From contig JAUCSD010000001.1 of assembly GCA_030445245.1 (NCBI GenBank), forward strand, positions 1 to 64,000: a stretch of 64,000 nucleotides of DNA, in the 5' to 3' direction. The DNA is from Candidatus Saccharimonadota bacterium. GTDB taxonomy: Bacteria; Patescibacteriota; Saccharimonadia; Saccharimonadales; Saccharimonadaceae. The notes beneath the pieces were generated by a model. The model ran no database searches. It was given only the letters and a program-made list of their open reading frames with translations, and was not told where the DNA came from. The position numbers were made by a program, and so were the translations under genes. Of this stretch, positions 25,008-55,284 are shown piece after piece (position 1 is the stretch's first letter; every line of letters starts with the position of its first letter).

Positions 25008-25469
25008 ATGAATCGACGGGTTGCTCTTATCGTCGCAGCTGTGCTCGGTGTCGGACTGTTGATGTTGGTGGTATCTGAGGCGGTCAGCGAGTTTCGCTCC
25101 TCGGCCGCTGCCAACACGCTACTCCAATGCTCGCCAAGTGACCAGTCCCGTAACTCGGTGACGGGTGCGGGAGGGCCTCTGCTCGAGGTATTTCCGATTT
25201 CGCTCGGAGACGAGCGGACTATCAGTCCGTTTAAGCTGCAAGAGCCGGCCGGCTCGGCCGTTCTGAGTATGCCGGGCGCTTCGCATCAGGTGGTGGTATT
25301 GGTATACGACATGCACTACCTAAAGATCGTTCGTGCTCAGCAAGTGGTGGGCGTGTCCTTCCGCGGCATTGCGCCGCTCGATCTGGTCAGTATTCCAGCG
25401 GACGTCAGAGCGCTGTATGAGTCGGATGCAAGCTACATCATCGCACCGAAATCCTGCCTACCTGCGTGA
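25008..25469 (+). CDS. GC-rich membrane-anchored protein, function unknown
   Basis: 153 aa. N-terminal signal-anchor (about residues 4-24), then an extracytoplasmic domain with two Cys (in LLQCSPSD and KSCLPA) that could pair. SD GGGAAGG precedes the ATG. Third codon positions are mostly G/C, unlike adk just downstream. It has its own promoter-like patch and a long terminator hairpin. No family recognised; one of several GC-rich single-gene islands. Confidence 0.7.
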   Translation: MNRRVALIVAAVLGVGLLMLVVSEAVSEFRSSAAANTLLQCSPSDQSRNSVTGAGGPLLEVFPISLGDERTISPFKLQEPAGSAVLSMPGASHQVVVLVYDMHYLKIVRAQQVVGVSFRGIAPLDLVSIPADVRALYESDASYIIAPKSCLPA

Positions 25470-25486
25470 TCGAGGAGAGAAGCTCG

Positions 25487-25528
25487 GGACTCATCGCGCA
25501 CGATCGTGCGATGAGTCCGGGTTTTCCT
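25487..25528 (+). terminator. Long-stem terminator of 25008 gene
   Basis: GGACTCATCGC / GCGATGAGTCC, 11 perfect pairs around the palindrome GCACGATCGT, then GGGTTTTCC. Confidence 0.8.
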
Positions 25529-38177: not shown

Positions 38178-38936
38178 CTACCTCACGTTCACCGGAATGA
38201 GACCATTGGCGCTCCTATCTTTGACAGGAGCAACGCATGGAGGCATCGTTACCTCCAGAGAACCGTCCTTCATTCGTGTGACCGACGCGCCGACCGAGTA
38301 TCCGTACTCGGGACCAAGAAGCTCGCGCATCAGAAGAAGGTCAATCATGTACGTTTTCCCGTCGGGGGTCTCGCGAATGAAGCCGGGCGCCGTCCAGGCC
38401 GTCTCACCGGGCTTCAGGTCTGCAGTTTTCCGGTGGCCCTTCAGGACTTCCGGAAACTCGACAGCGCTGCCCTTGGTCGTTGTGGTTGCCGTGAGCTCAT
38501 GCGTACTCGGATCCCAGTACGTCAGGACGCTTACGGGCTTCCAACTGGTGGGATCGGGGGTGACATTGCTCTCGTGGGTATACCCCACGGGCAAGCTGAC
38601 ATGGTAAGCGTTGCCTACCTTCTCCACGGTACCGCACGCGATGCGGAGGTCGCAGCTCGTCAAGCTCATGTCCGTCCGCACGTAGGTGCGGCCATCGATC
38701 ACGATTACGTCAAAGCCGGGTTCGTCTCGGTGCGGGGAAGCATTGAGTCGCGTCTGGTATGCGAGGCGATCAGGGAACGCCTCTTCCGGAGTCGGAGACA
38801 CCGTAAGCGTGGCGAACGGTCGGAGCGTCGTGTCCGGCTTAGACACGGACCTACTTACCGTTATGAGCACGAGAGCGAGTAGGGTTAGGAGGGCTGCCGC
38901 TATCGCGATAGTCCCAGTCCGTTTGCGACTGTTCAC
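38178..38936 (-). CDS. GC-rich membrane-anchored protein, function unknown
   Basis: 252 aa from a GTG. Signal-anchor at about residues 9-29, then an extracytoplasmic part rich in beta strands, with two Cys (TSCDLRIACGT) about 7 apart and a third near the end (PPCVAP). Codon use is strongly G/C at third positions. It has a TTGACA promoter at 38989-39017 (minus) and its own terminators. No family recognised. It lies next to, and divergent from, the TasA/SipW-like island. Confidence 0.68.
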   Translation of the reverse strand: MNSRKRTGTIAIAAALLTLLALVLITVSRSVSKPDTTLRPFATLTVSPTPEEAFPDRLAYQTRLNASPHRDEPGFDVIVIDGRTYVRTDMSLTSCDLRIACGTVEKVGNAYHVSLPVGYTHESNVTPDPTSWKPVSVLTYWDPSTHELTATTTTKGSAVEFPEVLKGHRKTADLKPGETAWTAPGFIRETPDGKTYMIDLLLMRELLGPEYGYSVGASVTRMKDGSLEVTMPPCVAPVKDRSANGLIPVNVR

Positions 38937-39366: not shown

Positions 39367-39395
39367 TTGACATATTTATATGATCCGAGTATGAT
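39367..39395 (+). promoter_or_regulatory. Promoter of the TasA/SipW-like operon
   Basis: -35 TTGACA (39367-39372), 17 bp, -10 TATGAT (39390-39395). Predicted leader of about 110 nt, unusually long for this genome. Confidence 0.78.
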
Positions 39396-39401
39396 GGTTT
39401 G

Positions 39402-39512
39402 AGTGTCACGCCTAAAAAGCGAGCACAACCCAGATTGTTGGGCGCAGAAACAGGGTACGACAAGGTTCTCATTTCTACGTGGCGAAAGCCACAGAACGGC
39501 AGGACGTCACTC
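39402..39512 (+). promoter_or_regulatory. Structured leader of the TasA-like gene
   Basis: The leader forms CCCA / TGGG (39430-39443 region) and a strong GTGGC-GAAA-GCCAC hairpin (about 39479-39492) with a GNRA-type tetraloop, 20 nt before the ATG. It does not match the c-di-GMP (GEMM) or other riboswitch cores that I know. It may control translation. Confidence 0.4.
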
Positions 39513-40055
39513 ATGTCTCGCATCTCCCGCAAGAAGCTCATCGGAATCGTCGTCGCGGGCCTCGCGGCCCTCGGTATCGCCACCGCGCTCGTTCTCCCCA
39601 GCACCGGGGCGGACTTCACGGCCAGCGACATCGGGACGGTCAACGTGTCGACTGCCACTCTCTCGCTCAGCCTGAGCGACGACAGTGGTTCCAGCGGCAC
39701 CTTCGACCTGAACTTCACGAACCTGGCGCCCGGCGCGCAGCAGGTCCGCAACTTCTACGTGAAGAACACGGGCAGCATCGCGGCGAACGTCAAGATCGGC
39801 AACCCGGTCTCCGGCGTCGTCTTCACGGCCCCGGCGGGCCAGACTCCCGACCCGGCCCAGTTGAAGTTCGGCGTCGACGGCTACCTGGCCCTGACGCCGG
39901 CCACCAGCATCGGCACTTCGATCCCGCTCGGCTCCATCGGCGCCGGCGAGACCAAGGGCTACACGCTGAGGGTCTCGCTCGACCAGGCCGCCGGCAACAA
40001 CTGGCAGGGTGTCTCCGTCGGCGCTACCGCCACGGTCACGCTCAACCAGCAGTAG
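39513..40055 (+). CDS. TasA/camelysin-like fibre protein
   Basis: 180 aa. N-terminal signal with KKLIGIVVAGLAALGIATAL (residues about 7-26) and the typical SipW-cognate region, then a beta-sandwich: ADFTASDIGTVNVSTATLSLSLSD, NLAPGAQQVRNFYVKNTGS and a GETKGYTLRVSL strand. This is the pattern of the TasA/CalY family, whose B. subtilis member forms biofilm fibres. Third codon positions are almost all G/C. ATG 39513 is chosen because the mature signal begins there; the frame is open upstream. The partner peptidase is encoded at 40666. Confidence 0.82.
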   Translation: MSRISRKKLIGIVVAGLAALGIATALVLPSTGADFTASDIGTVNVSTATLSLSLSDDSGSSGTFDLNFTNLAPGAQQVRNFYVKNTGSIAANVKIGNPVSGVVFTAPAGQTPDPAQLKFGVDGYLALTPATSIGTSIPLGSIGAGETKGYTLRVSLDQAAGNNWQGVSVGATATVTLNQQ

Positions 40056-40086
40056 GCCGTCCGGTCAGCAATCTCGGGTTGTGAAC

Positions 40087-40133
40087 ACCACCCCGGGCCC
40101 CCTCCACGCATCGGCGAGGGAGGCCCGGGGTGC
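40087..40133 (+). terminator. GC hairpin between TasA-like and PT-rich genes
   Basis: CACCCCGGGCCCCCTC / GAGGGAGGCCCGGGGTG, very stable, without a T-run. It could end or weaken transcription after the fibre gene, keeping fibre mRNA above peptidase mRNA. Confidence 0.55.
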
Positions 40134-40247
40134 ACACCCCATTCGTACAACTTCAAGCTATTGATATGCGCTTGAGGATCCGAACAACTTCGGAGCCTAA
40201 CGCACCTACCCATAGTTTCATCCTGATAAGAAGGAGTGATGAGCGAT

Positions 40248-40685
40248 ATGCGCCGCCGCATCCGACGTCTCTCGTTGACGACACTGTTCGCAATTGTCGC
40301 CGCGAGTACCGGGTATTTCCTGATCCCGCCAACTAGTGCGAGTCTTCAGGACACTCAGCAGGGAACGATCCACATCACGATCAGCATCCCCGCAGAGCCG
40401 ACTAGCTCCGAGCCGACATCTCCGCCGCGGCGCCCTCGAGTGTCTTCGGTGACTGCGAACCCTAGTGGTATGCCGTCAACGAAATCAAGTCCTTCGGGGT
40501 CCCCGACACCAGAGGAGACCACTACGACTCCGACTACGGCGCCGAAAACCCCTGAACCCTCGAGAACAACGCCCGCAGTCCAACCGACTGAGGAGAAGAG
40601 TCCGAAACCGTCAGACACTGCGACCGCAACACCGACCGTTACGCCTTTCGACAAGGAGACAAGCGATGACCAAGCGTCTTCGTAA
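40248..40685 (+). CDS. Pro/Thr/Ser-rich secreted protein
   Basis: 145 aa. A signal-like N-terminus (RRIRRLSLTTLFAIVAAST) is followed by about 100 residues of P/T/S/E low complexity (SGSPTPEETTTTPTTAPKT), a stalk or anchor. No sortase motif at its end. The ATG at 40248 is preferred: AAGGAGTGA ends 8 nt before it, while two earlier starts overlap the SD. It overlaps sipW by 20 nt. It is probably part of the fibre system as a minor or anchoring subunit (inference). Confidence 0.68.
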   Translation: MRRRIRRLSLTTLFAIVAASTGYFLIPPTSASLQDTQQGTIHITISIPAEPTSSEPTSPPRRPRVSSVTANPSGMPSTKSSPSGSPTPEETTTTPTTAPKTPEPSRTTPAVQPTEEKSPKPSDTATATPTVTPFDKETSDDQASS

Positions 40686-41172
40686 CACCGCCATCTGGTC
40701 CATCGCTGTGCTGATCGCACTTTGCGGTGCGTTCCTTCTGGCGACGAGCTACGGCGTCCAGGTTCACGCCGTCAAGTCGGGGTCCATGGTGGGTACGCTG
40801 CCCAAAGGCGCGATCGTCATCACTCATCCCGAGAAGAACTTGAAACGGCGTGATGTCATTCTGTTCCACAACCCCGGTGATCGTACGGGTCTCACAACCC
40901 ATACGTTCCTCGGTTACAACAAAGATGGCAGTCTGATCACCAAGGGCGACGCCAACCCGTCGGTGGACAACTTCGATCAGCCGCCGCACCAGTCTGACGT
41001 CGTCGGGAAGGTGTGGCGTCACGTCGATGTCTTCGCGCCGTCGTTCTGGCTGACTCTGCGAGGAATCATCGTTGTCGTCTGCCTGGCCTTCTTGCTGCTG
41101 GGCTGGTGGCTGTACCAGTCTGCGGATGAAACTGAAAAAGCGTCGAACTCAACCGAGGTCGACGCGATCTAA
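40666..41172 (+). CDS. sipW: SipW-like (ER-type) signal peptidase I
   Basis: 168 aa. An N-terminal span, catalytic Ser40 in KSGSMVG, then His79 in LTTHTFLG where ordinary SPase I has Lys, and GSLITKGDANPSVDNFD with the conserved Gly-Asp and Asp residues. A C-terminal span (about 130-152) follows. Ser/His chemistry and two spans define the ER/SipW type, which matures TasA-type fibre proteins. SD AAGGAG lies 8 nt before the ATG. Last gene of the island; a long terminator follows. Confidence 0.85.
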   Translation: MTKRLRNTAIWSIAVLIALCGAFLLATSYGVQVHAVKSGSMVGTLPKGAIVITHPEKNLKRRDVILFHNPGDRTGLTTHTFLGYNKDGSLITKGDANPSVDNFDQPPHQSDVVGKVWRHVDVFAPSFWLTLRGIIVVVCLAFLLLGWWLYQSADETEKASNSTEVDAI

Positions 41173-41200
41173 CCCGTCTGACCACTCCGACTACGCGTCG

Positions 41201-41247
41201 AGCAAATGCTCCGCCGACTCGGGTTGGTCGGCGGGTGTTTGCTTTTA
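41201..41247 (+). terminator. Long-stem terminator of TasA/SipW-like operon
   Basis: AGCAAA...CCGCCGAC / GTCGGCGG...TTTGCT, then TTTT. Between it and 41474 lies about 225 nt with only a TATGAT -10 (41441-41446). Confidence 0.82.
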
Positions 41248-42174: not shown

Positions 42175-43023
42175 CTAGAGGTTGAGCAGGCTCAGTGGTC
42201 TCGGTGGCTCAGCAGGATCATCGCCATCTTCATCGATTGGTAGCCAGATTTTTACAGATTCATTATTTTTTATTGTCTCAAGCGTTGTCGTAGCGAAAGT
42301 AATTTCCTCGTATGAATCTTGAAGTTCTTTAGCTATTCGCTTACGGAGCCGCTTCTGCATGCTCGTATTGGCACATGCCATAAGGATAGTAGGAAACATG
42401 GTGCCAGTCTCACTCCAATCTCCGTCCTCACTATATTTGAAGTAAGTCTTTAGTTTTCTGATGAGGACAAAAAACGGCTGGGTATCTTCAAAGATATCGA
42501 GAAAGAATTGAGGCTCGTCATCGTTATCTCCAAGGCGAATATAGGCGTCTGGGAGAGAGCTAGGGAGGTAGTCGTAACATTCGTAGTTGAGACGGCTCTT
42601 TGTGCGATATATGATATTGTCTTTTGCCAGGTACTGCTGTTTTAAAACAAGATATACTTGCAGCACATTCGAACAGTGCTCAACAAAATTCTCGGAGACA
42701 TTCATATTCCTGTAGATTTGTTTGAAATTAATCGGCTCATGTGGTTCGCGAGGAATTAAAGAATCTAGTGTTTTGACACCTCTTGGAAGAAGGTAATATG
42801 CGGCAGGTTTGCCCCTAAGCTTATAAGTCTTGTCGTAACGCTTGGCTATGAATCCTTGGTCTTCGAGTATCTTGAGTCGGTTTTGAACGGGCCTGATAGT
42901 TTGTTTATGTTGATAGGAGGCTATTTGTTTACAACTGGCAAATCGAAATCGATACAGGAGTTCTAAGATGTCTACTTGTTCCGAGTTTAGTTTTTTACGA
43001 TGTTTTGGTTGTGTGCTGCTCAT
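42175..43023 (-). CDS. Replication-relaxation family protein
   Basis: 282 aa. Residues about 12-85 form a winged helix (LNSEQVDILELLYRFRFASCKQIA ... NRLKILEDQGFIAKR), followed by a domain with the family's YLLPRGVKTLDSL segment and a nuclease-like region (QFFLDIFEDTQPF). The family occurs on conjugative elements and plasmids of Gram-positive bacteria, near relaxases. Here it stands alone, with no relaxase or transfer genes near it. An AT-rich 345-nt gap precedes it. Confidence 0.75.
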   Translation of the reverse strand: MSSTQPKHRKKLNSEQVDILELLYRFRFASCKQIASYQHKQTIRPVQNRLKILEDQGFIAKRYDKTYKLRGKPAAYYLLPRGVKTLDSLIPREPHEPINFKQIYRNMNVSENFVEHCSNVLQVYLVLKQQYLAKDNIIYRTKSRLNYECYDYLPSSLPDAYIRLGDNDDEPQFFLDIFEDTQPFFVLIRKLKTYFKYSEDGDWSETGTMFPTILMACANTSMQKRLRKRIAKELQDSYEEITFATTTLETIKNNESVKIWLPIDEDGDDPAEPPRPLSLLNL

Positions 43024-54684: not shown

Positions 54685-55284
54685 CTAGAAGAATCGTATT
54701 TTGTTAAGAGGGTAAATTCGAATGCCAACAGGTCCAACGACATCGTAGAAAGGAATGAGACCAAGGCCGCTACGTGAATCGTACGAGTAGTCACCTTGAC
54801 GGTGGTCACCTGAAACGAATAGGGTGCCATCGGTCACGATAGTATCAACGTCACCACTTGTAGGAGAACCTGGCTCGCCGTGATTGTTGTCGTCAGGATG
54901 GAAGCCTTCAGGATGAGCATCATTATATACCGTAAGAATGCCGTCTTTTACTGTAACGCGCTCGCGAGGGAAGGCGATAACTCGTTTAACGATATACTCG
55001 TCACCGGTACCAGAGTTATAATGTGGGTTCTTAAAGACGATTATCTGACCACGTTCTGGGATGTATGGTTGATTTCGAAGTTGTGCCAATGTAACAGGGA
55101 GACGGTTAACGATTAAACGATCGTCTGTGTAGAGTGTTTTTTCCATACTTGGCCCTAGGACGTTGAAACTGCGAAATACATAGGTATTGATAAGAAGCGT
55201 ACCAATAAGCACGCATGCAATAAAGATTAAAATACTAAGGCCATCTTTTAATAGAGCGTGACGTTGCAAGAAGTTTGGTTCCAT
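54685..55284 (-). CDS. lepB: Signal peptidase I, Ser/Lys type
   Basis: 199 aa. One N-terminal span (about residues 16-37), catalytic Ser in VLGPSMEKTL (about 46), catalytic Lys in YIVKRVIAFP (about 99) and GDHRQGDYSYDSRS near the end. This is the general bacterial SPase I, in contrast to the SipW-like enzyme at 40666. TATAGT (minus 55297-55292) ends 7 nt before the ATG, so leaderless. Divergent from the LCP gene. Confidence 0.92.
   Translation of the reverse strand: MEPNFLQRHALLKDGLSILIFIACVLIGTLLINTYVFRSFNVLGPSMEKTLYTDDRLIVNRLPVTLAQLRNQPYIPERGQIIVFKNPHYNSGTGDEYIVKRVIAFPRERVTVKDGILTVYNDAHPEGFHPDDNNHGEPGSPTSGDVDTIVTDGTLFVSGDHRQGDYSYDSRSGLGLIPFYDVVGPVGIRIYPLNKIRFF

Follow-up and report, generated by a model that had tools for sequence, protein, structure and literature searches.

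A candidate SipW-dependent, TasA-like surface fibre operon in a Saccharibacterial genome

We identified a three-gene operon that probably encodes a SipW-dependent surface fibre system of the donor-strand (TasA-like) kind, with a strand-only protein as its starter. The operon lies in a 64,000-nucleotide stretch of DNA (the window) from a single-contig genome of 1.164 Mb that is 99.45% complete. A sequence-only reading had attributed the DNA to a TM7-type genome, and the family does include MAGs titled Candidatus Saccharibacteria or Saccharimonadia. ORF listing and a sequence scan placed three consecutive plus-strand genes at 39513-41172, with one promoter on the 5' side and a T-tailed terminator on the 3' side (Table 1). 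The single promoter, the three open reading frames, the operon's own terminator and its GC-rich composition (0.58-0.64 versus 0.47) were all found as that reading had described them.

Table 1. Features of the operon, with positions in the window
Feature	Position	Strand	Remarks
Sigma-70-type promoter, TTGACA-17-TATGAT	39367..39395	+	11/12 consensus matches
5' leader, about 110 nt	39396..39512	+	start of transcription inferred from -10 box
TasA-like fibre subunit (candidate), 180 aa	39513..40055	+	signal peptide 1-33; mature DFTASD..., 147 aa
Strong RNA hairpin, 15-16 bp, no T-run	40089..40132	+	immediately 3' of subunit gene
Gene 2, Pro/Thr/Ser-rich secreted protein, about 145 aa	40239..40685	+	start 40239 or 40248
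SipW-like ER-type signal peptidase, 168 aa	40666..41172	+	Ser40/His79/Asp95
Intrinsic terminator	41210..41245	+	10-bp stem (41210-41235), then T-rich tail

Subunit orthologues were found in two other genomes among the 198 family genomes searched, JALRDA (G105, 46% identity) and VGLK (G031, 40%), which belong to separate genera; the source genome is labelled G000. Both have the identical three-gene order at the position it takes in the window, immediately 3' of the essential gene ileS, so that a search for homologues with the same neighbours, proposed in the sequence-only reading, returned the operon at the same site in two other genera. The -35 box and its distance to the ATG (-146, -137 and -133) are conserved in the upstream regions of the three genomes, as is an AAAAA-GTGTTGACAT block (AAAAA-GTG) upstream of the -35 box on the 5' side of the subunit gene. 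DNA alignment of the three regions also revealed leader elements, ACAACCCAGAT and GTGGCGA..CAC, common to the window and G105. Promoter-like sites numbered six, against 1.4 expected in shuffles. Given the same genes, order and ileS site in two other genera and the conserved promoter position, the operon is a real unit, and neither a private acquisition nor an assembly artefact. The peptidase reading frame begins 20 bases before the end of gene 2, an overlap that suggests translational coupling.

The surroundings of the operon differ among genomes. Between ileS and the operon, the window has a divergent orphan gene and G031 has two short ORFs; the G031 operon crosses a contig break, the two contig ends of which overlap. 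In G105 and G031 alike, the next gene after the operon is a class C26/GATase-like one, and in G090 (genus g9, shared with G105) and G095 this gene comes directly after ileS with no operon between them. Across the 30 genomes inspected, the site downstream of ileS is variable. Pilin-like, C26, NUDIX, DsbD-like, glycosylase and other genes, with functions judged by eye, occupy the 3' side of ileS according to genome (loci L054-L094). The operon is patchy, bound to one site and old enough to be present in three genera, through loss or through transfer among Saccharibacteria. The divergent orphan in the window (38178-38936, minus strand, GC3 0.71) encodes a membrane-anchored or secreted protein; it was considered as a part of the system and rejected, its sole credible homologue being in G013 (33% identity), with none detected in G031.

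The product of the first gene had been called a TasA/camelysin-like protein. It is TasA-like and coupled to a SipW-type peptidase, with homology that is partial and confined to about the first 90 residues: residues 6-92 match the TasA model NF046066 with an E-value of 1.2e-5 and 24.9 bits, short of the equivalog cut-off of 450 bits, and the match to camelysin PF12389 (17.8 bits, E 0.003) is below the gathering cut-off of 22.5 bits. When a profile of the three subunits was compared with PDB sequences, the most relevant match was to TasA structures and was weak (E 0.09). An LxPG...NxGS motif is conserved across the three orthologues. TIGR04088, the model for SipW-dependent signal proteins, did not match the window protein. 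The predicted cut in the subunit, GA/DF, at a site that the three orthologues share, puts Phe at P2', as in TasA, and provides the cleavable signal suited to the peptidase that the sequence-only reading had called for; the predicted P2' residue of the signal peptides is Phe (or Trp/Leu). Phe at P2' is an obstacle to E. coli LepB but is tolerated by SipW (PMC10269814).

Structure prediction gave an all-beta model for the window subunit (AF2, pLDDT 64) with residues 1-15 unstructured. This model had no significant match in the PDB, with type 1 pilus subunits and CupB6 among the structures listed. The AlphaFold model of the G031 orthologue (pLDDT 70) is also all-beta, with residues 1-14 unstructured. 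In the PDB comparison FimG, a type 1 pilin, came first (E 6.7e-4) and a GOLD domain next; FimF, the PapG pilin domain and a Csu pilin are also listed amid mixed Ig-like folds, and Ig-like matches to CEP192 and GOLD domains rank near the pilins. TasA itself (5of1) is absent from the 50 listed fold matches of either model, so the comparison with TasA that had been proposed as a check brought up FimG as the nearest structure to the G031 model and did not recover the TasA jellyroll. The G031 model supports an incomplete Ig-like sandwich and is not proof of a TasA fold. That the subunit forms a fibre, as the sequence-only reading held, is plausible from the resemblance of the G031 model to donor-strand pilins and from its unstructured N-terminus, with the window model contributing no significant match. 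Amyloid, the term used in that reading, is the wrong word, because TasA filaments are donor-strand and not cross-beta assemblies (PMC9674648, PMC10151520).

The peptidase had been described as SipW-like with a Ser/His pair, and Ser40 and His79 are indeed conserved in the aligned ER-type relatives. In an alignment with Saccharibacterial and Leifsonia sequences, in which two rows were partial or cut, His79, Asp95 and Asp101 are invariant and Ser40 occurs in every row that spans it. The ER-type signature is present, with a Ser-His catalytic pair, a downstream GD..N..D and no Lys. Profile matches were to TIGR02228 (1.7e-11), NF046067 (3.8e-6) and PF10502 (3.3e-5); the PF10502 score of 24.3 is over its cut-off of 22.9, and those for TIGR02228 (44.2) and the SipW model NF046067 (26.6) are under theirs of 51.85 and 190. 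It is the sole ER-type peptidase found in the genome. A separate P-type signal peptidase is encoded at 54715-55230, and the operon peptidase therefore looks dedicated.

Gene 2 occupies the same position in the three operons. Profile searches with its 145-residue reading frame found no recognised domain and no family match, and the protein has no Cys. Its mature N-terminus, SLQDTQQGTIHITISI, resembles that of the subunit. The signal peptide is followed by 16 strand-like residues, of which numbers 2, 10, 12, 14 and 16 are hydrophobic in each of the three genomes, and the C-terminal part is a disordered Pro/Thr/Ser-rich tail. Over the first 15 mature residues, the summed BLOSUM62 score between gene 2 and the subunit was 133, against -76 +/- 49 by column permutation (P 2e-4), and the similarity occurs in register 0 only. 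Part of this likeness may come from recognition by one peptidase, but residues 8-15 are beyond the cleavage site. Secretion of TapA residues 44-57 alone (its first 14 mature residues) still supports biofilm in B. subtilis (PMC10151520), where the N-terminal strand of TapA is considered to be inserted into the first TasA (PMC10151520, PMC9674648). Judged by its sequence, the gene 2 protein looks like a pared-down, natural strand-only analogue of TapA that lacks the Ig domain.

A strong hairpin (-37.5 kcal/mol, z -5.5), which the sequence-only reading did not note, lies within the operon. The 80 nt after the subunit stop codon fold at -43.1 kcal/mol, and equal stability was seen in 0.6% of 165 sampled genes of the genome. 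Equivalent hairpins lie 3' of the subunit gene in G105 (-35.2, z -8.3), in G031 (-42.6, z -8.6) and in G224, a genome from another family (-39.9, z -7.6). Equivalents also occur in G319 and in a TasA-like/SipW pair on a Leifsonia plasmid (25-bp stem), and several other Saccharibacterial SipW operons have no hairpin. Unlike the window copy, the G031 hairpin has a T-run on its 3' side and may act as a terminator. The hairpin probably raises subunit output, through message protection or partial termination.

The sequence-only reading considered that the operon looks acquired. Composition bears this out chiefly for the first gene; presence at one locus in three genera shows that the operon is not a private recent import. 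GC3 is 0.934 in the subunit gene, 0.62 in gene 2 and 0.75 in the peptidase gene, so that the extreme value is mainly in the first gene, which lies 6.6 SD above the genome mean of 0.446 (sd 0.073; 169 sampled ORFs, operon included). Subunit genes elsewhere are similar (0.816 in G105, 0.989 in G031 and 0.942 in G224), and over four operons from two families the ranges are 0.82-0.99 for the subunit and 0.49-0.75 for the peptidase. Gene 2 values are 0.46-0.62. Ribosomal genes of the same genome have GC3 of 0.37-0.46 and prefer GGT, GCT and CGT, whereas the subunit gene prefers GGC, GCC and CGC. We therefore rejected translational selection, in its ordinary form, as the cause of the high GC3. With the bias concentrated in the subunit gene and missing from the ribosomal genes, "acquired" is most apt for the first gene, which likely came from a high-GC donor. 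A tblastn search of plasmids and phages revealed no actinobacterial source for it. Among the matches listed, a contig scan gave nothing beyond the orthologues in G105 and G031 and one weakly matching protein from Bacilli, and no relative of the operon was found in viral contigs. The window subunit and that of the Leifsonia plasmid (NZ_CP065038, locus L097) share 28% identity over 109 residues, with a two-sequence E-value of 3e-6.

The GC3 contrast between subunit (0.82-0.99) and peptidase (0.49-0.75) in four operons and two families, against about 0.45 for the genome, together with a published proposal that TasA homologues from different species form joint filaments (PMC10151520), points to a further reading that we consider improbable. 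In it the epibiont would renew the subunit repeatedly from actinobacterial hosts of high GC and would attach by donor-strand co-polymerisation with TasA-like fibres of the host, the strand-only TapA analogue serving as the starter.

In the mechanism we favour, Sec would export the two pre-proteins and the dedicated peptidase would cleave them. Each subunit would insert its freed N-terminal strand into the incomplete Ig-like sandwich of its successor, building a thin, non-amyloid filament. The gene 2 protein, with a donor strand and no acceptor domain, would start the filament and cap its base, and its Pro/Thr-rich tail would be a flexible spacer toward the envelope. By protecting or separating the subunit message, the hairpin would keep subunits far in excess of gene 2 protein and peptidase. 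The fibre would probably be adhesive, binding either the host or other cells, and attachment to a host is a reasonable role for it.

A somewhat unlikely alternative is that the subunit is a monomeric SipW-processed surface protein (an adhesin, an envelope coat or a camelysin-like protein) that never polymerises, with gene 2 encoding a mucin-like wall protein that shares the cleavage motif. The match to camelysin would suit such a protein, as would the diversity of SipW substrates, exemplified by TIGR04088 proteins in other Saccharibacteria, and the many non-pilin Ig domains among the fold matches. However, the hairpin after the subunit gene and the conserved order of the three genes are in keeping with stoichiometric assembly; the subunit's N-terminal 14-15 residues, though conserved, have no structure in either model, as would be expected of a donor strand; and alternating hydrophobic residues occur at 10, 12, 14 and 16 of gene 2 in each of the three genomes.

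It is very improbable that the stretch arrived recently as actinobacterial cargo and has no function in this lineage. The occurrence of all three genes at one locus in three genera, the conservation of an AT-rich promoter, and the composition of gene 2 and the peptidase gene, which is far nearer that of the genome, argue against it, even though the subunit gene has a GC3 of 0.93 and codon choices opposite to those of ribosomal genes, a GC-rich orphan adjoins the operon and a replication-initiation-like gene is found at 42175. A general role for the peptidase, as a second signal peptidase whose neighbours are incidental, is extremely improbable: the frequency of ER-type peptidases in the order (given below) would allow it, but SipW-type secreted proteins adjoin the enzyme in most ER-type loci inspected, and the overlap with gene 2 suggests coupled translation.

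Among the known systems nearest to the donor-strand fibre that we favour is B. subtilis tapA-sipW-tasA. Both have a major beta-sandwich subunit with an N-terminal strand and the LxPG...NxGS motif (here the fold is only predicted), an ER-type peptidase within the operon, and a partner whose N-terminus resembles that of the subunit (PMC9674648, PMC10151520). They differ in that mature TasA has about 234 residues against 147 here, the Bacillus gene order is tapA-sipW-tasA rather than subunit-partner-peptidase, TapA has a V-set Ig domain and a disulphide that gene 2 lacks, and the window proteins fall below both the TasA and SipW equivalog cut-offs. The sipW-tasA, calY and capP system of Bacillus cereus likewise has SipW-linked subunits, a separate assembly factor and sortase-independent filaments (PMC13082335), but it has two subunits and a different chaperone, belongs to a Firmicute and is unlinked to ileS. 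The Leifsonia plasmid shares the arrangement of a subunit gene, a strong hairpin and then an ER-type peptidase; it has no gene 2 and is closer to another Saccharibacterial type, represented by G037 (32% over 218 residues). Type 1 and P pilus subunits (FimG, FimF and the PapG pilin domain) resemble the subunit in the predicted incomplete Ig-like sandwich and unpaired N-terminal extension, but these pili are a diderm system, their chaperone and usher are absent here, and no sequence homology was found.

Of 295 Saccharimonadales genomes, about 80, or roughly a quarter, have a clear SipW-type ER peptidase (E < 1e-12); this is a manual count, and the 167 genomes obtained at E 0.001 include P-type enzymes. 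Most ER-type loci inspected have SipW-type secreted neighbours, and Saccharibacterial proteins in G139 and G180 pass the curated cut-off of TIGR04088. We found no open-access paper in which SipW or TasA fibres are connected with Saccharibacteria or Patescibacteria; judging by titles and abstracts, the co-mentions seem incidental. Saccharibacteria in culture live on other bacteria, and type IV pili explain their binding only partly (PMC12206443). If our reading is true, the operon would supply a second class of fibre from three genes, with no dedicated usher or sortase, which suits a genome of 1.16 Mb, and the minimal TapA peptide known from deletion work in Bacillus would have its natural counterpart in the gene 2 protein.

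Other Saccharibacterial operons pair SipW with TasA-like or SipW-signal proteins (loci L047, L051 and L057-L062), some with two or three substrates, and one type is shared with the Leifsonia plasmid. Two matches to ER-type peptidases in genus g12 contain an in-frame TAA (G108:C2:45039-45518 and G067:C4:417624-418106) and are perhaps decaying genes.

Just downstream of the operon, at 42175-43023 on the minus strand, is a gene for a replication-initiation (nicking) protein of phage or plasmid type (PHROG 9381, 2.5e-11), which may be a remnant of a mobile element. No convincing flanking repeats of such an element were found around the operon, and a search for tRNA-associated integration found no tRNA genes in the window. 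Elsewhere in the window, a small secreted-looking orphan gene at 25008-25526 (GC3 0.65, no PHROG match) has a hairpin after its stop codon, where 80 nt fold at -45.9 kcal/mol, the lowest value in the genome sample. In a sample comprising the window and loci L099-L108, a downstream hairpin of -30 kcal/mol or lower follows 6 of the 12 ORFs with GC3 above 0.58, versus 4 of 174 others. Several of these high-GC3, hairpin-ended ORFs encode small secreted-looking proteins or lipoproteins, and some may be spurious; the pattern suggests a class of single-gene acquisitions.
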